A stretch of 34,509 nucleotides of DNA from a bacterium. GTDB lineage: Bacteria > Cyanobacteriota > Vampirovibrionia > Gastranaerophilales > Gastranaerophilaceae. The stretch spans positions 1 to 34,509 of the forward strand of contig JAAVBM010000081.1 in the NCBI GenBank assembly GCA_014803505.1. Direction: 5' to 3'. The notes beneath the pieces are model-generated. The model saw nothing but the letters and a program-made list of their open reading frames with translations. It ran no database searches and was not told the DNA's origin. Positions 5,718-34,508 of the stretch are shown here, piece after piece (the first letter of the stretch is position 1; every line of letters starts with the position of its first letter). A program made the translations under genes and the position numbers.

Positions 5718-5723
5718 CTAATC

Positions 5724-7154: not shown

Positions 7155-7156
7155 AA

Positions 7157-7185: not shown

Positions 7186-7196
7186 AGAATCATACC

Positions 7197-8078
7197 ATGA
7201 AAAAAATGATTTCAAAATTTATGAACAATCAGAATTTCGCCGGATATATTTTTGTGTTACCGGCAATTTTAGGTGTTTTTATTTTTATAATAATTCCTGT
7301 TATTTGTTCATTTGGGCTCAGTTTTGCTAAATGGGATTTGTTGAATCCTATTGAGTTTGTCGGGGTTCAAAATTATGTAGAGATTTTTCATAGTAATTTA
7401 TTTTATAAAATTTTGGTAAATACAATAGTTTTTGCCTTATCAACGTCAATATTCGGGGTTATAATCCCATTAGCTCTGGCTGCGATACTAAATTCTAAAA
7501 TTATTGGAAGTGAGTTTTATAAAACTGCATATTTTTTGCCATTTATAACTCCGATGGTTGTTGTTGGAATAGTATGGGCGTGGATATTTGACCCTAATAT
7601 CGGATTGTTAAATCAAGTTTTGCATATTCATATAAATTGGCTTTATGATTCGAAATATGCTATGCCTGCTCTGATTATTGTTTCTGTTTGGAAGTTAATT
7701 GGGTATAATATGATAATTTTCTTGTCTTCATTATCTTCTGTTTCAAAAAGTTTGTTTGAAGCTGCAAAAATAGATGGTGCAAATAGTTTCCAAGTATTTA
7801 AAAATGTAACTGTTCCAATGCTGTCACCTACGATATTTTTCGTAGTTATTATTACAACAATAAGTTCTTTTCAGGTATTTGATTTGATTTATTTGATGAC
7901 CCAAGGCGGACCGTTTGATAGTACTAATGTACTTGTTTATGCAATATATAAAAACGCATTTGAGTATTTTAATATTGGTAGAGCAAGCGCGATTGCATAT
8001 GTGTTGTTTATAATAATTCTGGTTTTGACATTGGTTCAATGGAGCTTAAGAAAGAAGCTTGTGTATAATGAAGAGTAA
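7197..8078 (+). CDS. Sugar ABC transporter permease (MalF/UgpA type)
   Basis: This inner-membrane permease of a carbohydrate-uptake ABC importer (CUT1 class, 293 aa) has six hydrophobic segments. The first is GYIFVLPAILGVFIFIIIPVICSFGLSF and the last ASAIAYVLFIIILVLTLVQWSL. The EAA motif that contacts the ATPase is EAAKIDGANSFQVFKNVTVPML. The usual neighbours (binding protein, second MalG-type permease, ATPase) are all absent, so its partners must be encoded elsewhere. No Shine-Dalgarno sequence precedes ATG 7197, and the alternatives at 7206 and 7221 are no better. The predicted leader is extremely short. Substrate cannot be read from the sequence. Confidence 0.88.
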   Translation: MKKMISKFMNNQNFAGYIFVLPAILGVFIFIIIPVICSFGLSFAKWDLLNPIEFVGVQNYVEIFHSNLFYKILVNTIVFALSTSIFGVIIPLALAAILNSKIIGSEFYKTAYFLPFITPMVVVGIVWAWIFDPNIGLLNQVLHIHINWLYDSKYAMPALIIVSVWKLIGYNMIIFLSSLSSVSKSLFEAAKIDGANSFQVFKNVTVPMLSPTIFFVVIITTISSFQVFDLIYLMTQGGPFDSTNVLVYAIYKNAFEYFNIGRASAIAYVLFIIILVLTLVQWSLRKKLVYNEE

Positions 8079-8094
8079 ATGATTTGTGTATTGT

Positions 8095-9573
8095 TTACCA
8101 ATCAATAGTATTTTCTACTTCTGTTTCATTCATTAGAGGAAGTTCAAATATAAAACTGTTGTTTGTTCCGTTAGCTTCCAAATAAATGTTTCCACTATGA
8201 GCTTCTACGATTTTTTTGCAAAAATATAATCCTAAACCTACGCCAAATTTTTTATGTAATTTTGCACCTGAGGCATATTTATTAAATAGTTGTTTTTTGA
8301 TTTCTTCCGGAATTTCCGGACTGGAGTTTTGTATTTTGAATATTATATTATTTTTTATTTTGCTAAGACTTAATGTAATGGTAGAATTCCTGAATCCATA
8401 GTTAATGCTATTATTTATTAAGTTAGAGAGTACTCTTCGGAGTTGGAATTCATCTGCAAAAATTTTACATTCGATATCCGTTAGGTTTGTTGTAAATTCT
8501 AAATTTATATTTTTTTCTTTTCCTAAGGAATGAGTTTCTTTTATACAGGTATTTATTAGTTTATCAAATTGAAAATAATCTTTGCAAAGTTCCACGATAC
8601 CATTTTCGTATTTGTAGATTGTAAGAATCGAATATAACATTTCATTCATGAATGTTCCCGATTCTATAATCATATTTATAATATCTTGCTGTTCTTTATT
8701 TAGTTCTCCGTAACTTCCGTTTAATAGCATTTTTAGGCTGCTAATCTGGGCTTGAAGCGGATTCTTTAAATCGTGGGTTAATGTTGATAGGTAAGTTTCT
8801 TTTTGTTTTTCCCGCAGTTTCTTTTCGTCAATATTATGAGCTATTGTGATTAAACCTTCTGCAGTGTTACTGTTAGAAATAATTGGAGTTTTGCTGACGC
8901 TGTACCAATGTTCGTTTCCTTGATGGTCAATTGTTAATTTTTCTTTTGTTATGCTTTTTTTATTTTCTAATACATATTTATCCTCAAAATTAATCATAGG
9001 AAGAGCTTCTTTTAAATCGAGGTGAATATTTTTTATATGATCTTTGCCTTGTTTAACAAAATCCTCTGCGTGTTTGTTTCCTATTATGTAGTTGTTGTTT
9101 TTGTCTTTCATATAAACATGCATTTGCAGAGTGTTTAGTATTGTATGAAGCTGGTTATTTTGAATTATAAGATTCTTTTTTATATTTTCTTCAGATGTAA
9201 TATCTTTTGAAATTGATAAAATTCCTTTTGGCTCATTATTTTCAATTATAGGAATCAATGTTTGTTTTATTATTTTTTCTTTTTCTTTGATGAGTATTTT
9301 GAATGTATGTGTATATGTTTTCTTATTTGTTAAAATATTTTTTGTATGATTATTAATTGTTTCTATGATAATTGGATCAATATTAAGAATTTCTTCTAAT
9401 GATTTATTAATTATGTCAGATTTTTTTGAAATGCCGAAAGCTTTTAAGAAAGCGCTGTTGCAGGTAACATATTTGTTCTCTAAATTTTTTACTGTGATAA
9501 TATCTTCACAATATTCTAGGACCGAACCTGACAAATCAGTCATAGTTTTTGAAGATGGGAACGTTTTAAACAC
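8095..9573 (-). CDS. Soluble PAS-PAS sensor histidine kinase
   Basis: The 492-aa protein has no transmembrane segment, so it should sense a cytoplasmic signal. Two PAS-like domains lie at about 12-125 and 140-252. HisKA follows with H267 in STLTHDLKNPLQAQ, then the HATPase_c domain with N-box LRRVLSNLINNSINYGF, a G1-type region at SGAKLHKKFG and G2 GVGLGLYFCKKIVEAHSG. It would autophosphorylate H267 and pass phosphate to a response regulator; none is adjacent. The start is GTG (9573) with AAGGAG eleven bases upstream; the in-frame ATG eleven codons in is the alternative. It converges on the permease gene with 16 bases between the stops and no visible terminator. Confidence 0.88.
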   Translation of the reverse strand: MFKTFPSSKTMTDLSGSVLEYCEDIITVKNLENKYVTCNSAFLKAFGISKKSDIINKSLEEILNIDPIIIETINNHTKNILTNKKTYTHTFKILIKEKEKIIKQTLIPIIENNEPKGILSISKDITSEENIKKNLIIQNNQLHTILNTLQMHVYMKDKNNNYIIGNKHAEDFVKQGKDHIKNIHLDLKEALPMINFEDKYVLENKKSITKEKLTIDHQGNEHWYSVSKTPIISNSNTAEGLITIAHNIDEKKLREKQKETYLSTLTHDLKNPLQAQISSLKMLLNGSYGELNKEQQDIINMIIESGTFMNEMLYSILTIYKYENGIVELCKDYFQFDKLINTCIKETHSLGKEKNINLEFTTNLTDIECKIFADEFQLRRVLSNLINNSINYGFRNSTITLSLSKIKNNIIFKIQNSSPEIPEEIKKQLFNKYASGAKLHKKFGVGLGLYFCKKIVEAHSGNIYLEANGTNNSFIFELPLMNETEVENTIDW

Positions 9574-9638
9574 TAAAATATAATCTCCTTTTTTTGTTTC
9601 AATCCGTTGAGTGTATAATAAACGCTTATCGTTAACAA

Positions 9639-9677
9639 TTACCTAGTAGGGTAACTTTTAAGTAATAATCAGGGTAA
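9639..9677. promoter_or_regulatory. Possible operator: GGGTAA repeats upstream of the kinase gene
   Basis: TTACC (9639-9643) and GGTAA (9650-9654) form an inverted repeat, and GGGTAA recurs at 9672-9677. The cluster is 66-100 bases upstream of the kinase start. Weak, based on symmetry alone. Confidence 0.25.
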
Positions 9678-9697
9678 TAGACAACAAAAAGAAGATT

Positions 9698-9734
9698 CAA
9701 AAATTAATATCAAAATTAATATCAAAATTAGTAT
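9698..9734. repeat. 12-bp tandem repeat, three units
   Basis: Three units of CAAAATTAATAT (9698-9710 with one extra A, 9711-9722, and 9723-9734 with one change) lie between the kinase gene's 5' side and the stop codon of the next minus-strand gene. TCAAAAAT (9697-9704) and ATTTTTGA (9739-9746) bracket them as an inverted repeat, which could act as a weak terminator for the upstream operon. Confidence 0.6.
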
Positions 9735-9748
9735 CAATATTTTTGAAA

Positions 9749-10327
9749 TTAAGCTTGTTGATCAATATTTTGTTTAGGTTGAGGTTTTTCTAATCCTATA
9801 GTTTTTAAAATAGGGTGAATAAGAGGATGAGATGCAATAGGTGCTACAATAGCTAAACCTGTTACAGAACCAAGTATAGAGCTTCCTTCAATAATTCCTT
9901 TAGCAAGATTTTCGTTAATATTATCTTTAGTAAATTTAACTTTTGGTTTTATAAGATTGTTTAATTCTTCAAGTTTTGCAGCTTTATCAGCATCTTCAAG
10001 TTTGCAATATTTTACAAAGTCTTCAGGCTTTTTGAAAGCTTGTAGAACAGGTTCACTTTTTGTAAACATTCTTGCTATAGAGAATGCACCTTTTTTAAAT
10101 ACCGGAATAATAGCTGCAAGGTAAATACCAAGACAAATCATTTGATATAAAAATTCTTTAGTTGCAGAGAATCTTTTAGTTTCCGGGTCAATATTGTGAT
10201 CCATTAAAATAAATCCAGGACGACCAACTGCTTTAAGGCAAGTCTCAGTAGTAACCTGAGCTGCAGTACTTTGGGTCATGTTATATAGTGTTGTATTAGA
10301 TATAATGTTTTGAATTCCGCCTATCAT
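9749..10327 (-). CDS. Unknown membrane protein, paralogue of the gene upstream
   Basis: I do not recognise this 192-aa protein. It has two hydrophobic segments (around FLYQMICLGIYLAAIIPVF and ILGSVTGLAIVAPIASHPLI) and a Lys/Gln-rich end. The motif RPGFILMDHNIDPETKRFSATKEF matches RPLFTMMDKKESPETKKYTALREG in the preceding gene, in the same position before the first hydrophobic helix, so the two are ancient duplicates. It begins one base after the stop of that gene, with its ribosome site (GAGGGTCGG) inside the upstream coding end. This implies translational coupling and possibly a hetero-oligomer in the membrane. Confidence 0.75.
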   Translation of the reverse strand: MIGGIQNIISNTTLYNMTQSTAAQVTTETCLKAVGRPGFILMDHNIDPETKRFSATKEFLYQMICLGIYLAAIIPVFKKGAFSIARMFTKSEPVLQAFKKPEDFVKYCKLEDADKAAKLEELNNLIKPKVKFTKDNINENLAKGIIEGSSILGSVTGLAIVAPIASHPLIHPILKTIGLEKPQPKQNIDQQA

Positions 10328-10328
10328 A

Positions 10329-10874
10329 TTAACCGACCCTCATTCCTGAATTTGTAAATCCTGAGATGCTTACATTATGAATAGGTGTAAGCTGTTTTAC
10401 ATCACTTCTGCCAGTTTGAGTGATTTGGGTTTTTGTTGTGTCAATTTCTGCAGTTTTTGATGTAACATCAAGTCTTGCAGGTTCTTCTTTTTTATTTTTA
10501 TGAAAAATCTTATCTGTAAAAGGTTTAATAACCATAGAACATAGTCCTGGTATTGCGACAAGAGCTGCAGTACAAACGCCTATAAATTGCAGGTTGTGTT
10601 TTGCTATTTCAGCCATTTTAGGATCTTTAACAAGTTTTGCCCCTTTTCCTGCAAGTGCACTGCAGGTAATATAAGTAGGGATTGCGATAACTTCGGTTAA
10701 ACCTTCTCTTAAGGCTGTGTATTTTTTTGTTTCCGGAGATTCTTTCTTATCCATCATTGTGAATAATGGTCTAAAAATCCCTTTTGCAGTAGCGATAGCT
10801 ACAACAACGTATGCCGGATTGTTATCCCGTCCTAAAGATTCCAGTGCTCTTTTTACTAAGCTGCCTTTTGACAT
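10329..10874 (-). CDS. Unknown membrane protein, first of a paralogous pair
   Basis: This 181-aa protein is of no family I know. It has hydrophobic stretches around YVVVAIATAKGIF, VIAIPTYITCSALAG and LQFIGVCTAALVAIPGLCSMVI. It carries the shared R-P-x-F-x-x-M-D...P-E-T-K-(K/R)-(Y/F)-(S/T)-A motif near residues 34-56. A Thr/Ser-rich polar tail (~125-181) follows. It probably spans the inner membrane two or three times. The ribosome site ahead of ATG 10874 is weak. It is the first gene of a two-gene operon, divergent from the TPR protein across a 239-base AT-rich gap. Confidence 0.72.
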   Translation of the reverse strand: MSKGSLVKRALESLGRDNNPAYVVVAIATAKGIFRPLFTMMDKKESPETKKYTALREGLTEVIAIPTYITCSALAGKGAKLVKDPKMAEIAKHNLQFIGVCTAALVAIPGLCSMVIKPFTDKIFHKNKKEEPARLDVTSKTAEIDTTKTQITQTGRSDVKQLTPIHNVSISGFTNSGMRVG

Positions 10875-11050
10875 TGATCTATTCTTTCTACCTGCCGAAC
10901 TATTTTTTTACAATTCATGGTGATAAGTTCACCAACAATTATTTTAAATCAAAGAAAAAATAAAATTGCTAGGAAAACAACAAAACTTTACAAAAAATCA
11001 TATAAATGATGTAGAAAATAATTATTATTTTAAGTTATATTGTTTGGTTA

Positions 11051-11079
11051 TTCAATAATTAGTATTTCTATTGTATAAT
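11051..11079 (+). promoter_or_regulatory. Promoter of the TPR protein gene
   Basis: TTCAAT (11051-11056), a 17-base spacer and a perfect TATAAT (11074-11079), 34 bases before the ATG. I see nothing else in the 10875-11050 intergenic stretch beyond AT-rich sequence. Confidence 0.6.
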
Positions 11080-11113
11080 TTTGTCAGGATTTATTTAAAC
11101 GGGGTGAGTGTAA

Positions 11114-14100
11114 ATGAAAAATAAGAAGAAAATGTGTGTATTGTTGATGATTGCAGTACTTGGTGTTTGTTCGATTAAATCAGAAGTTTATGCAAATGAT
11201 GATGTTGAAAATGCTGCAACAGATGTTGTACAGGTGCAAAAAGATGATTCTCAAGAACAAGAAACTGAGGAAATTAAAGGTAATAGAGAGGCTTTAGAAA
11301 AAGCAAAAAGTCTAATGGCTAAAAAAGATTTTCAAGCTGCAATTACTTATTTGAATGCGTACATTACTTCTAAACCAAAAAAATACGAAGGTTATAAATA
11401 TAGAGGTGATGCTTTTTATGCATTAAGACAGTATTCTCTTGCTCAAAAAGATTATCAAACTGCAGTTGATTTGAAGGCTGATGATGATAAATTTGTTACC
11501 GGAACTAAAGTTATAAGTGCAGTTGTTCTTGGTGCTGATAAAGAAGAACAACTGCAAAATGCAGAATTGGGTAATTTGTACGGAAGATTGATGTATGCTC
11601 AAAAAGCATTAAATGATCCTGCTTATGAAGCTTCATATTCAAAAGCTGTAAAATATAATTCTCATATTTATCTTCCTCAACCTAAAAAGAATGATATAAC
11701 TAGAATTAATTGTCCGCAAAAATATGGTAAAGTTTTAAACCCATTAGGAGTTGATTCATATATTTATGGTGCAATCGAAGATATTGAAAATTCTAAGTTT
11801 AAAGATGCAGAACATAAGAGTCAGTATCTTATTTCGAATTATCCGGAATATTATATGGGATATTATTTAAATGGTGTTGCTTTATCTGGATTAGATAAGG
11901 ATGAGGATGCAATTCTTGCATTTGAAACAGCTTTAAAATACAATCCTTATGATTTTGAATCTTTGGCGAGTTTGGGTTTGATTTATTATAACAAGATTGA
12001 ACAAGCTTTTTCTGTTAGCGATTCCAAAAAGTCAATTGAATATTTTGAAAAAGCTTTAAAATATAATCCGAATTGTAATTCTTATTATTTGTATATGGGT
12101 ATGAATGCACTTCAGGCAGGTCGTAATACTTCAGCTATTGCAAGTTTTAATAATGCTATAAAATTGAAATCTAATGATTACAACAGCATGTACTATAAAC
12201 TTATTGCTCAATATCTTAATGAGGATTATAGTGATGTAACCGATGGTGCTGCAAATTTATTATATAAACATGTTTCTAACTATAATTCGGTATTATATTT
12301 GAGAGCTTTAGCTTATTATAAAATGGGGTCTTATGATTTAGCACTTGAAGATTTGGATATGATTTCAAATTCGGTAAATGATATTTTTAATATGGATTTA
12401 AAAACTCCTACTGATAGCGAAAAATCATTGGAAAGTTATGTTTACTATTTGAAAGCTCAAATTATGCAAAAGAAAGGATTTGGTGCAAAATCTGATCTTA
12501 TAAAAGCTTATGAAAATCCGATTATTGCAAAACTATCACAACTTGAAAAGGCAATAGTTCCTTATGTAAAACCTTTTTCTGGTAGACAAGTTTTAACAGC
12601 TGATTATGAAAAGTATAATAATTTTTATAATAATGAACTTCCGAAATTGCTTACCGGAAATATAGAATTTTCAGAAGATGATATTGAAAATCAATATGAT
12701 TATATAAGAACAACTTTTGCAAATGTAGGTATAGGGTTTAAGAAAGAAAATGACTCTTATAAATTGGCAATAATAGAAGGGTATCCTCAAGAAAGATATT
12801 TATCTAAACTTCAACAAGAAACTTCTGTAGTTGCAAATGCTTCTGAAACTATAAATTCTGAAAAACCTGTATTAAGAGCTAATTCTTTACAAGAAGAAGT
12901 CTTGCTTGAAGATAATCAAATGTCTATTGCTCAAATGCTAGCCACTAATTCATTAGCTGCGGTTTCATCAAAACAAACAGAAATTCCTGTTGAAAAAATT
13001 ATAAAACCTGTTCAAGAAGAAAAACTTCCGGAGAAAATTGTTGAAGTAGAAACTCTAAATGATACAGTTTTGGCGAAAGAGTCAGAAAGTATAGTTTTAA
13101 CTGAAAAAGATGTTGTTTCCGCAGTAGCGCCTATTAAAGAAAAAACGACGAAAAAAGTTGAAAAAAAATCTAAAGTTGAATCTGTTAAAATTATCGAAGA
13201 AACTGTTTCAGAAGCAAAAACTGATCTAACAGAAAATGTTGCAGATCATCCAGAAGTTTCTGATGTTGTAATACCTGCTGTTGAAGAAAAAACAAAAAGT
13301 ATTGTTGAAAAACATGCAAAAGTGGATTCTCCTAAAGTTGTTATCGAGAAAAAAGAAATTCCTGAAATAGATGACAGTATGGATGTTGTAGTGCTTGAAC
13401 CTCAAAATAGCTTGTTTATGGCTGCAAAAACTCAGATTCAACAGGAGTCTTTTAATATCAAATATCCGGCTGTAGAACAGGTTGTAACTAATAATGAAGA
13501 AGTTATTGCTAATAGTGATGATAATGTTATAACTTCCGATGATAGTCCGGTGATTCTTCCAGAAACTGAGTCGGAATTAGATAAAAAGCAAGAAGGTTCT
13601 GTTGCGGTTCCTATTGTTATTGTACCTGAGCTCGAACCAAAATCTTCCGAAGAAATTGAAGAAACTCAACAAATTCATATCACTGAAGTAAATAGTGAAT
13701 TAGAACAATCAAATGTTTTGGCTATGAGACCAACTATTGAACCCGAAAAATTTATAGAAACTTCAACCAAAGATACTATTGTTGTTTCAGAACCTGTTGA
13801 AACCAAAGCAGATAAGGTTAAGAAAGAGAAAAAAGTAAAAACAGAAAAGGTTAAAAAAGAAACAGAATTGAACCTTGTTGATGATGTAAAAGATCAACTT
13901 GAAAAGCCTGTTAAAATAAAAAAAGAAAAAACAATAAAGGAAAAGAAAACTACTCCAATTGAAGAAAAACCATTGAAGGTGAAAAAAGAAAAAGCTGTTA
14001 AACAAATTGAACCTCAAATAGTTGAAACGGATACTGATGCTATAGAATCTGTTGATGTTGTTTCTCAGAAGAAAGAGAAGAGAGTAAAACCTAAAAAAGA

Positions 14101-23298: not shown

Positions 23299-23388
23299 GG
23301 AGGAGTGCCAGAGCGGTTGATCGGAGCGGTCTTGAAAACCGTCGTACGTGCGAGCGTACCGTGGGTTCGAATCCCACCTCCTCCTCCA
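23299..23388 (+). tRNA. tRNA-Ser (TGA)
   Basis: A class II tRNA: acceptor GGAGGAG pairs with CTCCTCC, anticodon stem GCGGT/ACCGT around CTTGAAA (anticodon TGA), long variable arm GTACG-TGCGAG-CGTAC, T-arm GTGGG-TTCGAAT-CCCAC and an encoded CCA. The discriminator reads T rather than the usual G for serine, which is uncommon. The putative transposon end lies 87 bases downstream, so this gene is the likely attachment landmark. Confidence 0.95.
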
Positions 23389-23528: not shown

Positions 23529-23554
23529 GACAGATGGTGCGATTTTTTCGGGCA
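23529..23554 (+). repeat. Transposon end repeat L1 (direct)
   Basis: Starts GACAGATGGTGCGATT and ends CGGGCA. Same length and layout as L2 and L3; probably a transposase binding site. The first copy lies 54 bases inside the proposed terminus. Confidence 0.75.
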
Positions 23555-23579
23555 AGTGGCTTTGTGAGCGAGTTTGAGG

Positions 23580-23605
23580 GGTAGGAAATAATCAAACCAT
23601 GTGTC
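23580..23605 (-). repeat. Transposon end repeat, inverted copy
   Basis: On the minus strand this reads GACACATGGTTTGATTATTT and then diverges (CCTACC instead of TGGGCA). Twenty bases match the L3 consensus with one change. It is the only copy in this orientation. Confidence 0.6.
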
Positions 23606-23640
23606 AAGCCAATCGGTCAGAACGGTCTTTTTCTGGTCTG

Positions 23641-23666
23641 GACAGATGGTGTGATTATTTTGGGCA
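23641..23666 (+). repeat. Transposon end repeat L2 (direct)
   Basis: Starts GACAGATGGTGTGATT and ends TTGGGCA, 112 bases downstream of L1. It differs from L1 at three positions. Confidence 0.75.
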
Positions 23667-23717
23667 AAGGCACTTTTCACTATAAGCCAGTTGCTTTTTA
23701 GGGTGTGTAGGGCGTTT

Positions 23718-23743
23718 GACAAATGGTTTGATTATTTTGGGCA
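23718..23743 (+). repeat. Transposon end repeat L3 (direct)
   Basis: Starts GACAAATGGTTTGATT and ends TTGGGCA, 77 bases downstream of L2. The central GATTATTTTGGGCA is identical to L2. Confidence 0.75.
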
Positions 23744-23802
23744 GTGACCGTTTTGAAATAGAAACATATGGGAATTAATTGATACAAAACCAACACAATG
23801 CT

Positions 23803-24123: not shown

Positions 24124-24423
24124 TTACAATGCATTTTTACCATTATATTTTTTCATGATTTTAAATATGTAACCTTCGGTAATTCCGCAAGCACGCACTA
24201 ATTTGAGTCTGGAACGTTTTGTTCCATCATAGTTATCTAAAATATATTGGTGTTTATATTTCATTAAGCTTGTTTTAGGAATAAAAAAGTCTCTCCCAGC
24301 ATAATGCAACATTATTTTCTTTGTTGCTTCAAAACCAACAATAGAAACAAGAGTTTGTAATTCCTCATTATCAATGGATTCTTCTGTAATATATTTTGCC
24401 CATTCAGGTTCACTGTAATTCAT
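24124..24423 (-). CDS. Mor-like transcriptional activator
   Basis: This small (99 aa) protein resembles the Mor/C family of phage Mu middle/late activators: LQTLVSIVGFEATKKIMLHYAGRDFFIPK (about 22-50) matches the dimerisation region ending in G-x-x-x-(F/Y)-I-P-K. The C-terminal helix-turn-helix is GTKRSRLKLVRACGITEGYIFKIMKKY (about 67-93). It would bind DNA as a dimer and activate a promoter. It is divergent from the transposase gene with a CATGTGACATG palindrome between them. It probably regulates the transposase operon or itself. ATG 24423 is chosen over an upstream in-frame TTG (24441); neither has a ribosome site, so the start is uncertain. Confidence 0.72.
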   Translation of the reverse strand: MNYSEPEWAKYITEESIDNEELQTLVSIVGFEATKKIMLHYAGRDFFIPKTSLMKYKHQYILDNYDGTKRSRLKLVRACGITEGYIFKIMKKYNGKNAL

Positions 24424-24489
24424 AAAAATATAATACCACAAATAAATATTTTACTAGAATTTTACTGTGTATTATTCTACTAAACAAAT

Positions 24490-24500: not shown

Positions 24501-24573
24501 TCTATTGTAGTTTGCATCTAGATTTTTCCATCCCAATTATATTTAAATTATTTTTAATAATTTGGAGGAGAAT

Positions 24574-26511
24574 ATGAATTATAATTGGATAACTACAAAT
24601 GAGTTAAGTGAAATATTAGATATTTCAACAAGTGCAATTCGTCAAAACATTCGAAAAGGGAAATACCAAGTTAGAAAAGTTTGCAAATGGTATGAGATAT
24701 TTATTCCTAGTTTAGATGTTGAAACTCAGAATAAAATAACGATTACTAGGGAGAATGCTTCAAAATCGTTAAAAGATATTCAATATTCTGAGGAGGATAA
24801 AAAACTAGCTTTAACTAAATTTGATTTAGTAATGCGATGGCGGAGTTTTACAATTAATTACAAGGGTGGAAAAGTTGAATCTGTAAAAGATTTTATGAAA
24901 ATTTATAATGTTCAATATAAGAACTCTCAAGCCTACATAAAAATAAATAATGTAAGTCCTTCTACAATGTTTAGATGGAATAAACAGCTAAAAGATTGCA
25001 ATGATAATTGGCAAGCTTTACTAAACAAGTATAAGGGTTTTACAAAAACAACACAATTATCTGAGATTGAGAAAGAAGTATTCTTGAAATTTTTACTTCA
25101 TCCTAACCAAACAAACATCGGAAAAGCGATAAAATTGACAAAATATGTTTTACAAGAAAAGGGTATTACTGATTTTTGTTGCGATATGACTTATCGTCGT
25201 TTTGCAAGAAAATATATTCAAGAACACTATGATTTATGGGTGTTTTCAAGAGAGGGAGGAAAAGCTTTAAAAGATAAAGTTATTCCTTATATAGAAAGGG
25301 ATATTTCACAACTTGAGGTTGGTGAGGTAATTATTGGTGACGGTCATAAACTTGCATTTCAAGTCATTAATCCTTTTGACGGTAAATTATGCAGACCTAC
25401 ACTTGTTGCTTATCAAGATTGGAAGTCAGGTGCCATAGTAGGGTTTGAAGTTATGTTAGAAGAAAATACTCAATGCATTGCTTCTGCACTAAGAAATTCT
25501 ATTATAAATCTTGGGAAAGTGCCAAAATATGTTTATCACGATAACGGAAAAGCTTTTAAAGCTAATTATTTTACCAATTTGGATGGTATATCCGGTTTAT
25601 TTGTCAGACTTGGAATAACACCTATTTTTGCTCAACCTTACAATGCAAAGGCAAAACCGATTGAACGATTGTTTAGAGAAATGCAAGATAGTTTTGAAAG
25701 ACTCTTACCATCTTTTGTCGGGTCTTGTATCGATAATCAGCCGGCTTATATGAAAAGAAATGAAAAAGTTCACAAAAAATATCACAATAATTATGTTCCA
25801 ACTATTGAGCAAGTTATTAAATTACTTAATTACTGGTTAGGATTTCATTATTCAAGACCTTGTAAAAATGTAGAGGGAAAATCTATTGGTGAAGTTTTAG
25901 AAAGCGGAAAAGGTGATGGTGTAGATTTATCAATACTTGATGACTTAATGATGGTATCCGAAATTAAAAAGATTGGAAGAAATGGTATTAGATTTTTAAA
26001 ATCAGATTATTATGACGAAAGCTTATACGGGTTAAGAATAAAAGTCGTTATAAAATATAGTTTATTTGATTTGTCTGAAATTAAAGTTTATGACACTAAT
26101 GGAAAATTTATCTGTATAGCAAAACGAATGGAAGCGATAAATCCACTTGCAAATTATACAGGTAATGCTAAGGATATTGAAGAATTTAAACAAAAGATAA
26201 AACAGCAAAAACGACTTGAACAGCAAACAGTTAAAGCATACTTTGCTGAACTTAAAAAAGATAAAATAGACATACCTCTTTTAGAAGAAAAAGACTATAA
26301 AGAATACAATTCGATTGATGATAAGAAATTATATCTTAGTGAATTTAAAGATTTTGAGGAAGATAACAGCCCACCGAAAATTTACAATAGATACGAAAAA
26401 TATGATTATTTAAAGAAAAAAGATACGTTAACTTTAGACGAAGAAAGTTGGATTTGCAACTACGAACGGTCGGATGAATTTCAGTTAATTTATAGTACTG
26501 AAGAAAGGTGA
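24574..26511 (+). CDS. DDE transposase, TnsB/MuA family
   Basis: This 645-aa strand-transfer enzyme has an N-terminal MerR/MuA-like helix-turn-helix (ITTNELSEILDISTSAIRQNIRKGKYQVRKV, ~6-36) and further helical DNA-binding regions to ~235. The RNase H-fold core carries D256 (IIGDGHK), D323 (YHDNGKAF) and E364 (AKAKPIERLFREMQ), spaced D-x66-D-x40-E. A beta-barrel domain follows (~470-525), with a charged helical tail (~530-645) that in this family contacts the ATPase partner. It cuts and joins transposon ends, binding the repeats at the left end. GGAGGAG precedes ATG 24574. The next gene begins six bases after its stop, giving a TnsB-TnsC-type operon. The MuA/TnsB split is not settled by eye. 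Confidence 0.9.
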   Translation: MNYNWITTNELSEILDISTSAIRQNIRKGKYQVRKVCKWYEIFIPSLDVETQNKITITRENASKSLKDIQYSEEDKKLALTKFDLVMRWRSFTINYKGGKVESVKDFMKIYNVQYKNSQAYIKINNVSPSTMFRWNKQLKDCNDNWQALLNKYKGFTKTTQLSEIEKEVFLKFLLHPNQTNIGKAIKLTKYVLQEKGITDFCCDMTYRRFARKYIQEHYDLWVFSREGGKALKDKVIPYIERDISQLEVGEVIIGDGHKLAFQVINPFDGKLCRPTLVAYQDWKSGAIVGFEVMLEENTQCIASALRNSIINLGKVPKYVYHDNGKAFKANYFTNLDGISGLFVRLGITPIFAQPYNAKAKPIERLFREMQDSFERLLPSFVGSCIDNQPAYMKRNEKVHKKYHNNYVPTIEQVIKLLNYWLGFHYSRPCKNVEGKSIGEVLESGKGDGVDLSILDDLMMVSEIKKIGRNGIRFLKSDYYDESLYGLRIKVVIKYSLFDLSEIKVYDTNGKFICIAKRMEAINPLANYTGNAKDIEEFKQKIKQQKRLEQQTVKAYFAELKKDKIDIPLLEEKDYKEYNSIDDKKLYLSEFKDFEEDNSPPKIYNRYEKYDYLKKKDTLTLDEESWICNYERSDEFQLIYSTEER

Positions 26512-26516
26512 TAATT

Positions 26517-27191
26517 ATGAAAAATATATTCGTTAAGACAAAAAATGTAAAAGCTTTTATAGCATTAGCAACTAATTTAAAACATACCCAAAAGAACATA
26601 CCAAAAATGGGGTTAGTATATGGTGATCCCGGTTTAGGTAAAACTAATGCGATTTTATGGTGGTCATTAAAACAGAATGCAATAATCGTTACAGCTAAAA
26701 ATGGAATGACAACAAGATGGTTTTTATCAGAACTGGTAGCTGATTTAGGAGAAACTCCTCAATATAATATTCCGGCTTTGTTTGAGCAAGCTACTCGTAA
26801 ACTTATTGAAAAACCACAAATGCTAATTATAGATGAAGTTGATTATTTAATAAACGAATCAAGAGCAATTGAAACCATTAGAGATTTACATGATAAGACC
26901 GGAATCCCTGTTTTATTAGTTGGTATGGGTGTAGTTGATAAGAAACTTCGTAGGTACAAGCATCTTTTTGATAGAATTATAGACATTTATAAGTTTGAAC
27001 CTTTTAATCTTGATGATGTAAAAGAAATCATAAGAACAATTTCCGATGTTTATATTGAGGATGAAGTCATTGAAGAAATACATAAGCGAGCCAATAGATT
27101 TCGTCAAATAGTAAAGATATTAACTAAAATCGAACATCTTGCCAAAAGTGAAGGTTATACAAAAATTACAAAAGAAGAATTGGGGTGGTAA
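26517..27191 (+). CDS. AAA+ ATPase, TnsC/MuB family transposition regulator
   Basis: This 224-aa ATPase has Walker A GDPGLGKT (36-43), Walker B MLIIDEVDYL (102-111), a sensor-1-like VLLVGMG and a C-terminal lid helix bundle (RFRQIVKILTKIEHLAK). MuB/TnsC proteins form ATP-dependent filaments on target DNA, recruit the transposase and give target immunity. It is short, closer to the compact TnsC of CAST and Tn5053-type elements than to Tn7 TnsC. It starts six bases after the transposase stop. Its own stop is one base before the next ATG, and its last codons hold the GGGGTGG ribosome site of that gene. Confidence 0.9.
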   Translation: MKNIFVKTKNVKAFIALATNLKHTQKNIPKMGLVYGDPGLGKTNAILWWSLKQNAIIVTAKNGMTTRWFLSELVADLGETPQYNIPALFEQATRKLIEKPQMLIIDEVDYLINESRAIETIRDLHDKTGIPVLLVGMGVVDKKLRRYKHLFDRIIDIYKFEPFNLDDVKEIIRTISDVYIEDEVIEEIHKRANRFRQIVKILTKIEHLAKSEGYTKITKEELGW

Positions 27192-27192
27192 T

Positions 27193-27963
27193 ATGGCAAG
27201 ACGAAAAAAGAGATTAATAGAAAAGCAAATAGAAGTTGTTGCTAAAAAAATGAGTATTTTTACTTTGAATGATCTTGAAGTTTTATTAGAAAAACCCCGA
27301 TTAGAACTTATACCAAGTTTGGAATTTTTGGTTTCAAAAAAGATATTAAAACATGAAGATAACTCATATATCTTTATACCTCCTAAAAATAAGGCAATTA
27401 AAGCTGAAGAACCTAATAAGCAAGAAAATTCTTTAGTTCATTGTTTACCTTTTAGACCTAAGAAACCAAAAGAAATTTATTTACGCAACATCAATGAAAT
27501 GGATGGGTTTGTAGATTATTTTTTTGCTCCAAAGTATGTAAAAGATAGAATTAAAACAATGTTTAAAGTTATAAAAGAAGCTCAAGGTAAAAAAGGAAAT
27601 AAATTAAAAGAAATTCTTGATAAAAATAATGTTTCTATGGATAGGTACAAAAAGTATAAATATGAATTTACTAATAACGGTTTAGTTAATGTGCTTGGAA
27701 AATCCACACATGAGCCGGGAGAAATTTTTTATTTTTACAAAGAATATTATCTTTCACCTAAGCAATTGAGTTCTAATGATGCTTGGGAACTAGCGATTCA
27801 GAGATTTGAAAAATTGATAAAATTGCGCTTGAATCGGAGTAAAATCACACCTCCAAAAACTATGTATGGTTGGTTAAAACAAGAATATACAACAGAGCAA
27901 ATTGAAAAATTTCGGAATTATAACTTTTCAGAATTTGATACCGAAAAATTATTTTATGAGTAA
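27193..27963 (+). CDS. Third transposition-operon protein, winged-helix-like, unrecognised
   Basis: The 256-aa product sits where TniQ/TnsD is found in Tn7-like, Tn5053-like and CAST elements, but it shows none of TniQ's cysteine/histidine zinc-finger motifs. The basic N-terminus (MARRKKRLIEKQ) leads into a probable winged helix (~8-62: VVAKKMSIFTLNDLEVLLEKPRLELIPSLEFLVSKKILKHEDNSYIF). A linker follows, then a helical region and a second Lys-rich DNA-binding-like segment (LKEILDKNNVSMDRYKKYKYEFTNNGLVN, ~137-165) and a helical end. It is translationally coupled to the ATPase gene and followed by a terminator. I infer a role in target choice or transpososome assembly; this is not proven. Confidence 0.78.
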   Translation: MARRKKRLIEKQIEVVAKKMSIFTLNDLEVLLEKPRLELIPSLEFLVSKKILKHEDNSYIFIPPKNKAIKAEEPNKQENSLVHCLPFRPKKPKEIYLRNINEMDGFVDYFFAPKYVKDRIKTMFKVIKEAQGKKGNKLKEILDKNNVSMDRYKKYKYEFTNNGLVNVLGKSTHEPGEIFYFYKEYYLSPKQLSSNDAWELAIQRFEKLIKLRLNRSKITPPKTMYGWLKQEYTTEQIEKFRNYNFSEFDTEKLFYE

Positions 27964-28073: not shown

Positions 28074-28892
28074 TTAATTCTCTGTCATAGTAACCTGAGA
28101 ATATTCCTTGATTTCTTTTAAGAATTTATCTCGATCTTGTTCCCAAACATTATAATTAATTACAGGCAAGTTAAAATTCCCCAAAAGTTGTTCTTTAAAA
28201 TCGTTTAATCTTGATTTATTAGAAATTTCAAACCCTGTAATATTTGGGTTTAAAAAGCCTTTCACTTCATTAAATGAAAAATCTGGAAGTATTATTGGTT
28301 GAAATGGTATATTTTTTATCCATATTGCTCCTGCTTCATTTAAGCAATATGGACTATTCATATAATTTTTTGAATACATAATAACAGCTAATACATTGTC
28401 TGTGGAATCCAGTTGAGATTTAATGTATTCAACATTATTTTCTCTAAGTGGAATTAAATATGCATCAGAAGAACTACAAAAAATTTTACCCTCATTACCA
28501 CTTGTTGGTTTTTGGACACCAATATCGTGCAATAAGGAAATAAAACTATCTACAATATCTTTATCTTTTTCAGAATGGCTAATAAAGATTTTGTCAAAGT
28601 ATTGAGGGAAAAAATCTCTTTTAATTTTTGTCAATGACTCAATAACAAATGATAAATCTCTCTCAGTACATCTTCGCTCATTTAGAACATCAAAATTACA
28701 ATAAAGTTTCCTAATGTATGGAGAACTATCAGATAATTGTAAGCTGATACCAATTAAATTTTTAATAATTTGTCTTAGTTTGTAACGATTACTATAACCA
28801 CTTGGCATGTCAAAGTTGGTCAATTCTTCTTTCGCCAAAGTAAGAACTTCGTTTAAATCTTGAAATTGTTCGTATGTATAAGTATCTGTCAT
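28074..28892 (-). CDS. TIR-domain protein (candidate NAD-consuming immune effector)
   Basis: This 272-aa protein has a helical N-terminal region (1-95) and a TIR domain (about 100-235): KIFISHSEKDKDIVDSFISLLHDIGV is the first strand/helix, and VLAVIMYSKNYMNSPYCLNEAGAIW carries the putative catalytic glutamate E186. Bacterial TIR domains with this glutamate usually cleave NAD+ or make cyclic ADP-ribose signals in antiphage systems, causing growth arrest on infection. The N-terminal part would be the regulatory or oligomerising part; I do not recognise it. It follows a 71-aa gene by 32 bases on the same strand, so the two are likely co-expressed. No ThsA-like or Argonaute partner is present nearby. 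The ribosome site is weak. Confidence 0.82.
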   Translation of the reverse strand: MTDTYTYEQFQDLNEVLTLAKEELTNFDMPSGYSNRYKLRQIIKNLIGISLQLSDSSPYIRKLYCNFDVLNERRCTERDLSFVIESLTKIKRDFFPQYFDKIFISHSEKDKDIVDSFISLLHDIGVQKPTSGNEGKIFCSSSDAYLIPLRENNVEYIKSQLDSTDNVLAVIMYSKNYMNSPYCLNEAGAIWIKNIPFQPIILPDFSFNEVKGFLNPNITGFEISNKSRLNDFKEQLLGNFNLPVINYNVWEQDRDKFLKEIKEYSQVTMTEN

Positions 28893-29241: not shown

Positions 29242-30615
29242 TTATTTTTGTATTTTGACAGAGTAATATAAGTTACTAGTCAATTCAAATTTTTCTTTAT
29301 TGTGACTTTTAAAAACTTTATAATTTATAAGAATTGTAATATCATTATTCATATTAATTTTATTAATATAATCTTTATGTAAATATGTTATTACTCCAGA
29401 ACAGACAGTAGCATCTATGTAGCTAAATGTATTATAATTATCATACCAATATTGCATATATCCTATTATTTGACCATTACTTTTAAATATTAGTTTATCT
29501 TTTTCTATTTCTATTTCTAAAGTTTTTTCATTTGGTATAAATAAATCTCTTTCGATTGTATACATTCTTTGAATATAATTACAACATTTATGGAACAATC
29601 CAATAAAGTATTCTGGAATATCTTCGGGAATAATAATTTTTCTGATATTTGAATGCCAAGGTATCTTTTTCATTTTTTCCCAAAGTTTCCCTCGCCTAAA
29701 AAATTCAAAATAATTTTCTAATGATTTTGGAGTATAGCTTAAATGCACTGGATAAATATCTATTGCAATAATTTCTTTATCAAATAATGTATCAGATTTT
29801 ATTTTTAATGGACAAGATAAGTAAACTGGAATATAGTCATCTTCCCCAAAATTCCATTGTTTAAAATTATAATCTATTAACTTGTCAAGAAATATAGGCT
29901 TGGCTGTAGGCTTTAATTCCAATAAGCCAAAGTCAATTGGAATAAAATCTTGCAATAACAATAATACCAAATTGTCAGGTAAATTATATATATCTTTACA
30001 AAATGAAATTAATCTCAAGAATGCAGATATTTGAATGTCATCTTGGAGTAGTTTAATATTTGGTGAACCCGAGCATCCTATTTCACAAAAATAATCAATC
30101 TTTCCATAATAGGAACATTGCTCTTTATCTATAATTTTTTTTAGTTCAAACTCAAACTGTTTTTCTAAATTTAAATCTATATTGCATATTTTTTTTAAAT
30201 GCTCTAAATTATTACTTACTAGCCCATTTTTTTGATAATTAATAGTATCTATTTTAAAACCATTTGGCACTGGTTCCGAATGGTTTTTATGCCAGGGTCT
30301 ATTTTGTTTTTCAAATTTTATATTAAAAATTTCTCCTAGACATATATCTGATAAGAAAGAATGAGCTTTGATGCTTTGCTCTATTTCAGCCAAAGAAAAA
30401 TAACTTTTTTGTTTTTGATTAATCAAATAAACAATTGCTAAAATTTCTAATACTTTGCTTTCCAAATGTTGTTTCTCTAAAAAGATAAGAAAATTATTTT
30501 TAAAATTTGGATTTGCAATTAAAAAGTCTTTTACTGCGTGAAAGGTTTGTTCTCTAACTAACATATCTGGCCATTTAAGCCTAGCCAAAAGAATTTGAAA
30601 GATAACATTTTTCAT
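29242..30615 (-). CDS. Unknown 457-aa partner of the STAND NTPase
   Basis: I do not recognise the family. The start ATG (30615) overlaps the NTPase stop by four bases (ATGA), so the two are translationally coupled and probably act together. The first ~85 residues look like HEAT-type helical pairs (LLARLKWPDMLVREQTFHAVKDFLIANPNFKNNFLIFLEKQ). The middle holds a Cys-rich patch (YFCEIGCSGSPN). The C-terminal third is beta-rich (TLEIEIEKDKLIFKSNGQIIGYMQYWYDNY; ITILINYKVFKSHNKEKFELTSNLYYSVKIQK), like a small recognition or enzyme domain without visible catalytic motif. No signal peptide or membrane helix. Its composition is markedly more AT-rich than the chromosomal genes to the left. Confidence 0.75.
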   Translation of the reverse strand: MKNVIFQILLARLKWPDMLVREQTFHAVKDFLIANPNFKNNFLIFLEKQHLESKVLEILAIVYLINQKQKSYFSLAEIEQSIKAHSFLSDICLGEIFNIKFEKQNRPWHKNHSEPVPNGFKIDTINYQKNGLVSNNLEHLKKICNIDLNLEKQFEFELKKIIDKEQCSYYGKIDYFCEIGCSGSPNIKLLQDDIQISAFLRLISFCKDIYNLPDNLVLLLLQDFIPIDFGLLELKPTAKPIFLDKLIDYNFKQWNFGEDDYIPVYLSCPLKIKSDTLFDKEIIAIDIYPVHLSYTPKSLENYFEFFRRGKLWEKMKKIPWHSNIRKIIIPEDIPEYFIGLFHKCCNYIQRMYTIERDLFIPNEKTLEIEIEKDKLIFKSNGQIIGYMQYWYDNYNTFSYIDATVCSGVITYLHKDYINKINMNNDITILINYKVFKSHNKEKFELTSNLYYSVKIQK

Positions 30616-33600
30616 AACCAATCAACCTCTTTTAATGGTAAATCTGCCATATCATCTTCCAATAAATTAATAAATTTATACATTATTTGTTTTGCAAGTT
30701 TAAATTCATCCATTTGTATTAAAAAATATACAAGATGACTTTTACCTAATGAAAACTCATTACCATATTTATATTCCGAAGAATCAATTATAAAATCTTT
30801 CCACTTATTTTTATACAAATCTTTCACTATTTGAAATCTGTTTTTAGTATTTTCCCAACTGCTATAATGTTCTTCCCAACTAAGATTTTCGATTATGCTT
30901 CGTATTAGCCATATATAAGCAAAATCTTTGCCATTTAATGATAATGCAATATCAAAAATTTCATCTAAATATAAATTCTTAATAAAATTCTTTTTAATAT
31001 TATAAAATTTTTCGAAAAAATCTAAAATTTCCATATCATAACCTCGCCCCCTCCAATGTTTTAACCAATCTAATAAACAATATTCATTAGAATAATCTAG
31101 TTTACTAATAAAGTCATTTAATTTGTCAACTGGATATTTTTCATAATCAAATATTACATTTTCTTTATGCAAAAAGTTATCATTTGAAGAATATTTATTT
31201 TCCTCTTTTAATATAGGCCTTCCGACCAAATTTTTATGTTTTATAATTGTTTTGCTATCATGTGCATAATTAAAAAATGGATTATCTGATGTAATTGTTT
31301 CTAAAAGAAGTTCTACATCTTGATCATTAAAATTTATATTTTCTAAAACTTCGTTTAAGCATTCTTTCGCACTATGCCATTCTTCTTTATCTAATAAATA
31401 ATTATAATATTTGACAACATACTCGTATGAATATTTGCAAAATAACCTCATAAAAATTTTTTTTGCATAATTAGAATTTTTATCTGTTACGTATTCAATG
31501 TTAATAATTATTCTGGCTAATTTTTTTAAAATACCATCAAATCCGGTTTTTTCTACATCCATACAGTATTCTACAATTTTTAATACTTCAAACAATAGTG
31601 GATCTTTATGATAACCATACCCCATAGCCATACAAAATGCCTTATCTAGATATAATTTTGCATCATCTATTATTTCATGTATTTGGGCAAACTTCGCAAG
31701 AATCAAATATTGGTCTGTACGTTCTTGAGTATACTGTAAATTAGTATCTAAAATACCTTGTTCCTTTTTTAGATAAAATTTTACAGCATTTTCTGTTAAA
31801 TATTTAATATTATTCTCAAAATAATCTTCTATCCAATTAGCTTCATGAAAATGTTTAAAATTAATAAGAGAAGCAATATCTTTTTCGTCTAATTTTTTAT
31901 TATCAATTTTTAATAGTATTAATAAATCAGTTATAATTTTTGTTATACTTGAACAGACAATCCTGTATTTTGAATTCCATCTAACTTCGTTTAAAATATC
32001 ACTTTCTGAAAAGTTTTCAAAAAAAGCTAACAAATTATTTAAATTGATTTCTTGTGATTTTTTTATCATTTCAGCAATAGTATTAGAAACATCAATAAGT
32101 GTTATTACAAAATTTTCAAAACCATTGTAGGTTTCAAACTTGTGAATATACGTTCTCTTAGTAAGTTTATTATAGAGATTTTCAAAAAATAAAGAATGGA
32201 AATAATTTTCAAGATCGGGGCATCTACCTGAATATTCATAATCTTCATTTTTTCTTTTGTGTACAATTGAATTTTCTAAAGAGTTTACGTTAGTCTGAAG
32301 AAAATTCTTATCTAAATAAAGCATCAATGCTAGGTATGGATTTTTCAGTATATTTTCAGATAACCCCCAAGAAGTTAAATCAATTTTTTGTTCAATAGCA
32401 TATAAACATAACCTTCTAATTATTATATAATTAGAAGCATTTTTTGAAATAAAATTTTTTATAAGATGGGTTCTTTTTAATGCACATAGATGGTTAAAAA
32501 GAAATATTAATCCATTTTCATAATTTGCATCAATTAATTTTTCCTGTATCTCGCTTATATTACTAGAATTTGCTAAGACGTGTAGTAAATTGTTATCTTC
32601 TGTATCTTGTGAAACAGAAACTTTTTTATATTTTAATTTTATTTGTCGAAAAATTTCTTTAATTTTAATATCTTTATTTTGACAAAAATCACTCAACGAA
32701 ACTAATTCATATGAGCTTAAACTATTTAAGGAATCAAACATATAATTTATTGCATATTGATTTTTATATAGATTACAGTAAAGATGACAGAATAACTCAG
32801 CACGGTATGTATTAAATTCAAGTGAATTTCTAAGTCGATTTTTTAAATGTCTTAGCTCAATAGTTTTAACAAAATCGTTTAAATAAAAAAATGTAATTTG
32901 TTCTGCTCTAGTTAAAAATTTTATTATTAAAATAAAAGAATATCCTTTTTTAAAATATTCTTTTATTTTATCTTTGGAAATATCAAGTACATCTGAGTAT
33001 TCACCTAATCTAGCTTTTATAAGTGGTAAATATAAATCAGTAAAAATATTTTCTTTTTGTGTTGAAATCCATTTTTTTATATATTTTAAGCATTTTATTT
33101 GTTCTTCATTAGTTATGTGTTCTTTAATATATACAAATATACTTTCATGAAAAGCTTTTATAAAATATCCATTATTAAATAATAAATGTCGAATTTGGTT
33201 ATAATATTTTAAAGCATCCGAAATACCGTTTTGAGTCAAACATTCTTCCAAATCACTTTTCTTCCAAATATCAATTTCTGAAACAATATAAATATATAAA
33301 ACTAACTTGCTATATTCATCAACTTTGTTTAATAATTCTTTATAATATTCTCGTATATCATTCTGTGGACAAATAGGCATTTTTTCTATATCAAAAGGTA
33401 AAAGTCTTAGATTATTATTTAAGGCGGCTTCTATGGAATATATTAGATGTAGAGGATGTCCATTTGTAAGTTTATAAAATGCTTCTGATATATCAGTATA
33501 ATAATCTGAATAATAATTGTTAGGTACAGAAATTCGATTATCATTAATAAGGTAATTTCTAATACTTTCAATCGACATAAAAGGTAACGTATACCATTTT

Positions 33601-34508
33601 TCTCTTTCAATGTCTAATAATTTATATGGTAACATTCCAGAGTCTATAGGTTGAGTACCTACTATTAATTTAATATTATCAGGTAATGGAAAAAGATTAT
33701 TAAATAATGTATCTAAGTCATCTTTTTTTCCTATATCTCGCCATACATGATCTAAACCATCAATAATAATTACAATTAGCCTATCTTTATAATTTTTAGA
33801 AAGTTCGATTAATACCTTTTCTAATTCATCATTATTAGTGAATTTCATTGAAAAAATATTATTAGTTTGTTCTAAAAGAGAGTTTTTAATATCAAAATAT
33901 CTATATCTTTTTTCATTTTTACTTTCTACAGATATATAATAATGATGCCTGATCACAAATATATCATCTTTTTCTAGTTGAGTTTTTAAATAACTGATGT
34001 AAGTACTTTTTCCTACACCTGGGGAACCAGTTAGAATAAAGCATTTTTCATTACTGTTTTTTATTTGTTCAATGATATTTTTATGAAATTCCATATTCGG
34101 TGGAATATAATTTTGAGGAATAAAAAATTCTTGATCAAGAGGTTTTGGAGGTCGACATTGTAAAATATTTGTTAGAATTTCTAGTGTTATCTTGTTGTTA
34201 CTATATAAAGATGTGCTTCTAATAAATTCTTTAAAAAAACACCAATCAGCTTTTGCATCACTAAATACAGAATATTCATTAAACAAATCTTCATCTAGAC
34301 TTATTAAATCATAATTTAGAAACTCAAATGTACAATTATCAAAAAATAATTTACAATTTTCTTCTGAACCAATCTGATTAATTAAAATTGTTTTTTTATC
34401 ATTAGGAATATCATTCCAAGATATTTTATTATTTTTAATTATTTGTAAAATCTCATCAGAAGGTTGTTTGTTTGTAACAATTTTTGCTTCATAGAGTTTA
34501 TCCTTTAA
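30612..34508 (-). CDS. Giant STAND-type P-loop NTPase (N-terminus outside window)
   Basis: About 1298 codons are visible. The frame stays open through the window edge, and no ATG with a ribosome site is seen, so the N-terminal effector domain is missing from view. A P-loop NTPase domain has Walker A GSPGVGKST (34002-34028) and Walker B RLIVIIIDGLDHVWRD. A sensor-like IKLIVGTQP and a winged-helix-like region follow. The remaining ~850 residues are helical and repeat-like, without clear TPR consensus, ending VDWL. This order (effector, STAND, long helical sensor) and the size resemble Avs-type antiphage sensors, which oligomerise on binding phage proteins. A 457-aa gene overlaps its stop. The exact Avs class, or a new class, cannot be told without the N-terminus. 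Confidence 0.85.
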   Translation of the reverse strand, partial: LKDKLYEAKIVTNKQPSDEILQIIKNNKISWNDIPNDKKTILINQIGSEENCKLFFDNCTFEFLNYDLISLDEDLFNEYSVFSDAKADWCFFKEFIRSTSLYSNNKITLEILTNILQCRPPKPLDQEFFIPQNYIPPNMEFHKNIIEQIKNSNEKCFILTGSPGVGKSTYISYLKTQLEKDDIFVIRHHYYISVESKNEKRYRYFDIKNSLLEQTNNIFSMKFTNNDELEKVLIELSKNYKDRLIVIIIDGLDHVWRDIGKKDDLDTLFNNLFPLPDNIKLIVGTQPIDSGMLPYKLLDIEREKWYTLPFMSIESIRNYLINDNRISVPNNYYSDYYTDISEAFYKLTNGHPLHLIYSIEAALNNNLRLLPFDIEKMPICPQNDIREYYKELLNKVDEYSKLVLYIYIVSEIDIWKKSDLEECLTQNGISDALKYYNQIRHLLFNNGYFIKAFHESIFVYIKEHITNEEQIKCLKYIKKWISTQKENIFTDLYLPLIKARLGEYSDVLDISKDKIKEYFKKGYSFILIIKFLTRAEQITFFYLNDFVKTIELRHLKNRLRNSLEFNTYRAELFCHLYCNLYKNQYAINYMFDSLNSLSSYELVSLSDFCQNKDIKIKEIFRQIKLKYKKVSVSQDTEDNNLLHVLANSSNISEIQEKLIDANYENGLIFLFNHLCALKRTHLIKNFISKNASNYIIIRRLCLYAIEQKIDLTSWGLSENILKNPYLALMLYLDKNFLQTNVNSLENSIVHKRKNEDYEYSGRCPDLENYFHSLFFENLYNKLTKRTYIHKFETYNGFENFVITLIDVSNTIAEMIKKSQEINLNNLLAFFENFSESDILNEVRWNSKYRIVCSSITKIITDLLILLKIDNKKLDEKDIASLINFKHFHEANWIEDYFENNIKYLTENAVKFYLKKEQGILDTNLQYTQERTDQYLILAKFAQIHEIIDDAKLYLDKAFCMAMGYGYHKDPLLFEVLKIVEYCMDVEKTGFDGILKKLARIIINIEYVTDKNSNYAKKIFMRLFCKYSYEYVVKYYNYLLDKEEWHSAKECLNEVLENINFNDQDVELLLETITSDNPFFNYAHDSKTIIKHKNLVGRPILKEENKYSSNDNFLHKENVIFDYEKYPVDKLNDFISKLDYSNEYCLLDWLKHWRGRGYDMEILDFFEKFYNIKKNFIKNLYLDEIFDIALSLNGKDFAYIWLIRSIIENLSWEEHYSSWENTKNRFQIVKDLYKNKWKDFIIDSSEYKYGNEFSLGKSHLVYFLIQMDEFKLAKQIMYKFINLLEDDMADLPLKEVDWL

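Follow-up and report, generated by a model that had tools for sequence, protein, structure and literature searches.

The locus and its mobile setting

The window analysed here is a whole contig of 34,509 bases (C81) from a 2.26-Mb MAG of 128 contigs; the host is a gut Gastranaerophilales bacterium that carries the gene pair under study on a mobile element (Table 1). The original prediction had described a STAND-like NTPase of more than 1298 residues, its gene joined by an ATGA overlap to that of a 457-aa protein (hereafter, the partner). Both the reading frames and the junction DNA bear this out: at the junction (...GATTGGTTATGAAAAATG...), the NTPase stop codon TGA occupies 30614–30612 and the partner start codon ATG 30615–30613. 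Since the window is a whole contig, the missing 5′ end of the NTPase gene reflects an assembly cut.

Table 1. Features of the window, in order of position
Feature	Position	Strand	Basis or remarks
tRNA-Ser adjoining the element insertion	23299..23388	+	
Repeats, presumed left element end, GACAGATGGTG.GATT.TTT.GGGCA	23529..23754	.	three direct copies and one inverted copy; common to L010
Transposition module	24562..27963	+	frames, PADLOC/Pfam matches
Mu-type transposase	24562–26511	+	
TniB/TnsC-like ATPase	26508–27191	+	
Third transposition gene	27139–27963	+	
TIR-domain protein, cargo of the element	28074..28892	-	PADLOC spbK profile, C-terminal TIR part only
Partner, 457 aa	29242..30615	-	predicted helical N-half and alpha/beta C-half; no known family found
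Open frame containing the partner	29242–30621	-	frame list
ATGA stop/start overlap, NTPase/partner	30612..30615	-	junction DNA
STAND/NACHT-like NTPase with long, predicted helical sensor	30612..34508	-	open frame, 1298 codons, runs off contig end
Walker B region, DGLDHVWR	33738..33761	-	invariant in 9/9 aligned NTPases
Walker A, GSPGVGKST	34002..34028	-	P-G-x-G-K-S-T invariant in 9/9 aligned NTPases

Four further genomes of the family (L009–L012) hold homologues of the pair at ~66–68% amino-acid identity. In L010, a 1416-aa NTPase (3760–8010) overlaps a 455-aa partner (8007–9374), and a type III restriction gene adjoins the pair. Relative to this copy, the window NTPase begins at about residue 118; the ~117 missing residues comprise most of the nuclease head, and a search for them elsewhere in the MAG returned only a 21-residue match at the contig end and one chance match of 14.4 bits. 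Between the window and L010, dN/dS was ~0.22 for the partner (0.197/0.899) and 0.21 for the NTPase (0.206/0.982). We consider both genes real because each has homologues in four genomes and a dN/dS of ~0.2, a value that also points to purifying selection on NTPase and partner alike. Their G+C contents are 23.4% (NTPase) and 24.5% (partner), against 31.0% over positions 1–28000 of the window.

The element has the make-up of a Mu/Tn7-like transposon, with a transposase carrying a Mu-type C domain, a TniB/TnsC-like ATPase and repeated end sites; the right end would lie beyond the contig. A small gene divergent from the transposase (24124–24441, minus strand) encodes what we take to be a Mor-type Mu activator. 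The placement of the pair in mobile cargo next to a TIR gene was correctly predicted from the start; that TIR gene matches the spbK profile at 1.4e-44, its first 97 residues lying outside the match. In L010, the counterpart tRNA and transposition region lies at 9906–13942, the element being just downstream of a tRNA-Met gene. Repeats of the same sequence lie ~140 bases from the tRNA-Ser gene in the window and ~110 bases from the tRNA-Met gene in L010, and the position of the element just downstream of a tRNA gene suggests tRNA-adjacent targeting; in L009, L011 and L012, ARAGORN found no tRNA. Window and L010 share 39% identity in the transposase and 49% in the ATPase, against 67% in the pair. 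The transposition proteins are thus far more diverged than the pair, which therefore probably moved between related elements. A transposon ATPase gene sits beside the partner in all six genomes of the family with a credible partner (the window, L009–L012 and G496). Between the pair and the transposition genes, L010 also encodes a 157-aa protein with a hydrophobic stretch (9426–9899, minus strand), present in L009 and L012 as well, for which neither PADLOC nor Pfam gave a match.

Other loci of the family were surveyed for defence genes. All ten neighbouring proteins scanned, from six loci, matched a PADLOC family (E up to 1e-5), these ten having been picked for defence-like annotation or position and not as a random sample. 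The matched families were a UG17 reverse transcriptase with SLATT, PD-Lambda-1, LeoA, LeoBC and two Avs2, together with the candidate families PDC-M01A, PDC-M01B and PDC-S13. At some of the loci viewed (for example L015, L016 and L019), neighbours with defence names were absent. The Avs2 genes lie in Moraxella (L033, 2396–6559, ~430 bases upstream) and in E. coli (L022, 17509–21636), where two STAND systems, Avs2 and the present family, thus share one island. Genes of the umuDC type (a Y-family polymerase and an SOS peptidase) were also noted near the pair or its remnant on the L018, L020, L033 and L035 plasmids.

Predicted domains of the NTPase chain and the partner

The predicted architecture of the system is a nuclease, a NACHT-like NTPase, a helical sensor of ~900 aa and then the partner. 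The original prediction had left the N-terminal effector to be identified from upstream sequence, and this succeeded in part: the head could be assigned in relatives, while the window's own piece lies outside the contig and did not turn up in the MAG. Residues 19–137 of the L010 NTPase match the PADLOC CBASS endonuclease effector profile (8.8e-11) and residues 20–134 the SAVED_PDDEXK profile (1.2e-10), so that in relatives the head is predicted to be a Cap4/DUF4297-type PD-(D/E)XK nuclease. In the alignment of nine NTPases, all eight rows that reach the head share G23, Y26 and Q27 (G-x-x-Y-Q), E51, D62, D63, and Q78, V79 and K80 (Q-V-K80); we presume that these residues form the catalytic set of the nuclease. 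A search by sequence found no solved structure related to the head, and neither of two structure models in which the nuclease fold was sought confirmed it.

Walker A and Walker B, the signatures of a STAND NTPase, were present in every one of the nine aligned proteins. The Pfam NACHT model scored 35.4 bits on the L010 NTPase and 23.8 bits on that of the window, above and below the cut-off of 26.7, respectively, and the L010 P-loop also matched AAA_22 (41.2 bits), ATPase_2 and NPHP3_N. The L010 protein follows the tripartite effector-NTPase-sensor layout, with the nuclease at 19–137, the NTPase at ~260–437 and, in a low-confidence model, a helical remainder. This model, built from four sequences (pLDDT 55.1, pTM 0.32), is all-helical from about residue 430, which would give chain 1 a sensor of ~900 residues.

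That the partner belongs to no recognised family was claimed at the outset, and our scans agree: no match was found for the window copy in PADLOC, Pfam, NCBIfam or PHROGs, for the L010 copy in PADLOC or Pfam, for three proteobacterial copies in PADLOC or NCBIfam, or for ten members in Pfam. Likewise, the claim that known Avs systems lack such a partner is in keeping with the PADLOC and NCBIfam scans, in which no Avs model matched it. A model of low overall confidence has a helical, HEAT-like N-terminal half, and the C-terminal half, modelled at a pLDDT of ~30, looks alpha/beta and not repeat-like. The ten-row partner alignment has 18 invariant columns, with no recognised catalytic motif; conserved polar residues include E52, E157 and D174 (L010 numbering). 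On plasmids, the partner is annotated as a 'multidrug DMT transporter permease' (L015, L035 and others), an annotation to which sequence searches lend no support.

Linkage, fusion and divergence of the two components

The pair is linked in Gastranaerophilales and in Alpha-, Beta- and Gammaproteobacteria. A tblastn search of 72,556 plasmid records with the Cupriavidus partner found 17 records, 16 of them with at least 80% of the partner. NTPase sequence was also present in all 16, and in 15 the partner adjoins it or is fused with it; five of the 16 hold identical Cupriavidus partner copies and are therefore not independent. In the Klebsiella record CP052288, the partner and the listed stretch of NTPase are far apart, which would fit a rearrangement; one Klebsiella copy is interrupted by an IS5-like element, and in Piscirickettsia just the last part of the NTPase is left. 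NTPase sequence was listed in 20 plasmid records, four without a near-complete partner match. Two Moraxella plasmids have an NTPase cut or interrupted by insertions, one of them with a separated partner remnant; a Pseudanabaena record matches just the core of the NTPase and a Nitrosococcus record just its first 179 residues. Several copies are broken by internal stops, frameshifts or insertions (L011, L012, L020 and L033), as might be expected of genes that carry a cost or experience fluctuating selection.

Among 386 genomes sampled across the phylum, the NTPase was found in four (E up to 1e-10) and the partner in five; the four NTPase genomes are exactly those with a strong partner match, the fifth partner match scoring 21.8 bits. 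Together with the 15 of 16 plasmid records, this confirms the co-occurrence of the two families that the original prediction had singled out for checking. In a sample of the family, seven of 383 genomes had a partner match, five being copies already described; of the others, the copy in G496 is diverged and truncated where its contig stops, and the 18.4-bit match in G044 was discounted. The fused gene (see below) occurs at 73.6% DNA identity in at least four of 5426 E. coli genomes, a lower bound because the search mode favours closer matches. No match was found in 50,697 phage records; IMG/VR yielded one contig with a fused form of 1940 aa.

The system was predicted to comprise two genes. This holds for the window, but relatives also encode it as a single fused protein. 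The genes overlap by 1–10 bases in the window, L010, Cupriavidus, Azonexus, Klebsiella E16KP0218 and Roseibium, and in Pseudomonas they do so when the partner start is taken from the open frame and not from the annotation. By contrast, Serratia, Klebsiella michiganensis, Pseudoalteromonas, E. coli and the IMG/VR contig encode a single protein of 1907–1940 aa; separate partners align to residues 1444–1921 of the fused forms of the first three.

Trees of the NTPase and the partner, built from 12 sequences each, have the same topology. Their mirror correlation of 0.97 was reached in none of 5000 permutations (12 taxa) and shows that partners have not been reshuffled, although shared ancestry of linked genes would give a high value anyway. 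The gammaproteobacterial fused proteins cluster together in both trees. The IMG/VR fusion falls instead on the side of Roseibium, where the pair is split (support 0.993 for the NTPase and just 0.386 for the partner), and its position apart from the gammaproteobacterial fusions suggests at least two events of fusion or fission.

Between clades, identity was 34% in the nuclease, 38% in the NTPase, 31% in the post-NTPase region, 17% and 25% in the sensor, and 27% and 18% in the N- and C-terminal halves of the partner. The least conserved stretches were thus sensor 681–1000 (17%) and partner 226–455 (18%), and the partner C-half was the least conserved region in the four proteobacterial comparisons. 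This pattern favours a recognition role for the sensor and the partner C-half, without proving it. Between the window and L010 the order within the partner is reversed, with 64% identity in the N-half and 71% in the better conserved C-half, which argues against a fast-evolving recognition tip in that lineage.

A possible two-chain receptor and its relation to known systems

Taking the observed domain order, motif conservation, linkage, fusion, purifying selection, defence neighbours and mobile context together, we favour, at a probability of roughly one half, a two-chain bacterial NLR-like (STAND) antiphage receptor in which the partner extends the sensor arm; we infer the antiphage role from context and architecture. 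Chain 1 would have a Cap4/DUF4297-type PD-(D/E)XK nuclease as its head, a NACHT-like NTPase as its switch and a long sensor arm made wholly of helices. Chain 2 is the partner, whose amount is probably tied to that of chain 1 by the ATGA overlap. The partner may extend the C-terminal end of the chain 1 arm as a detachable part of the sensor, its conserved helical N-half docking on chain 1 and its faster-evolving C-half sharing in trigger recognition. Upon binding of a phage component by arm and partner, the NTPase would bind ATP and oligomerise, and the clustered nuclease heads would cut DNA and stop the infection, probably via cell death or arrest. More tentatively, the family may represent a STAND receptor whose sensor is split in two, with nuclease and NTPase on a constant chain and recognition left to a separate subunit that has been fused and split several times in evolution; such a receptor would be a bacterial counterpart of paired or co-receptor NLRs.

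Somewhat less likely, the pair is an ordinary member of a catalogued bNACHT or Avs clade with an overlooked accessory gene. The NACHT score of the L010 copy above the Pfam cut-off fits this idea, as does the occurrence of the PD-(D/E)XK-NACHT architecture in bNACHT clade 6 (bNACHT25/32) (PMC12169576). An Avs1b profile also matches the NTPase region, but only locally and with NCBIfam scores of just 25.5, 27.8, 29.3 and 19.2 bits, the cut-off being 1500; PADLOC likewise gave a local Avs1b match of 24.1 bits for the Cupriavidus NTPase, and no Avs model match for the window NTPase, L010 or the two fused proteins scanned. We therefore rejected whole-protein membership of Avs1–Avs5, the Avs1b scores being far under the cut-off. 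Further points against this reading are that hhalign of the nine NTPases to two Avs2 proteins (identified by PADLOC) returned one hit of only 127 P-loop columns, and that the NTPase profile found no solved Avs chain by sequence (E up to 0.1). For the partner, no family was found, and its profile gave a probability of 0.1 and no alignment against Avs2 by hhalign. Membership of Avs2 was discarded on the same comparison, the effector and sensor regions giving no hit and only the P-loop core being detectably related.

A regulatory partner, which either keeps the nuclease receptor inactive in the manner of an antitoxin or aids its folding while the chain 1 arm senses phage proteins, appears unlikely. 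The overlapping genes do hint that both chains are made at a constant ratio, and chain 1 already has a helical sensor of its own; two papers portray STAND receptors as a single chain of three parts that includes a C-terminal sensor (PMC12169576, PMC12931631), and in one case sensing is mediated by a host chaperone and not by a dedicated subunit (PMC12169576). Fusion and linkage as such would look no different for a regulatory or chaperone-like partner. However, the partner is fused to the receptor at no fewer than two places in the tree, which a dissociating antitoxin would hardly tolerate, and from clade to clade the partner C-half has diverged as quickly as the sensor. More improbable still is a partner that acts as a second effector or as an enzyme in its own right, freed or activated by chain 1: the alpha/beta look of the C-half and the additional enzymes carried by multi-gene STAND systems such as Avs1 are in its favour, but no enzyme family matched in four libraries and the few invariant columns hold no catalytic motif that we recognise.

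Judged from sequence, the pair belongs to a real, conserved and widely scattered family of STAND receptors, for which a nuclease head is predicted and whose second component, as yet unnamed, occurs as a separate subunit or as a fused C-terminal domain. The bacterial NLR-like receptors described in PMC12169576 and PMC12931631 are single tripartite proteins, whereas here there is a dedicated second component. The coexistence of split and fused forms means that partner swaps between relatives could show what a separate sensor subunit does. A protein family that is uncharacterised and automatically annotated as a transporter gains a functional context, and gut Gastranaerophilales are seen to carry such STAND systems on tRNA-adjacent transposons. 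As to the prediction that the system is undescribed, neither text searches nor six protein accessions of the family retrieved a description of the pair from the part of the literature covered (including PMC12169576, PMC12931631, PMC13092281, PMC12839542 and PMC12724215), to which core NLR/Avs papers did not belong; the DefensePredictor paper among these tested 94 E. coli candidates (PMC13092281).

Among known systems, CBASS Cap4 (DUF4297-SAVED) has the same type of N-terminal endonuclease by PADLOC profile, but in the present family a STAND NTPase and sensor follow the nuclease instead of SAVED. Membership of CBASS Cap4 was rejected, since only positions 12–133 of 489 (PDLC00741) and 13–123 of 483 (PDLC02005) of the profiles were matched. 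HerA-DUF4297 is likewise a two-component set of a DUF4297-type nuclease and an ATPase. There, however, the ATPase is HerA and the nuclease a separate chain, whereas here nuclease and NACHT-type NTPase are predicted to share a chain, and no ATPase family matched the other; no HerA family was among the 25 Pfam families listed for the L010 NTPase (E up to 0.5). With bNACHT25/32, as described in PMC12169576, the family shares a nuclease head, a NACHT switch and a C-terminal sensor, and to these it adds the ~900-aa arm and a second protein or fused domain. Avs1–Avs4 (AVAST), for which recognition of terminase or portal is a further hallmark, are alike in STAND core, nuclease-type effector (PMC12931631) and large C-terminal sensor, and differ in that no Avs model matches the partner of the present family. 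The mode of action of the family most likely resembles that of Avs and bNACHT receptors, even though the Avs membership tests applied here came out against it.
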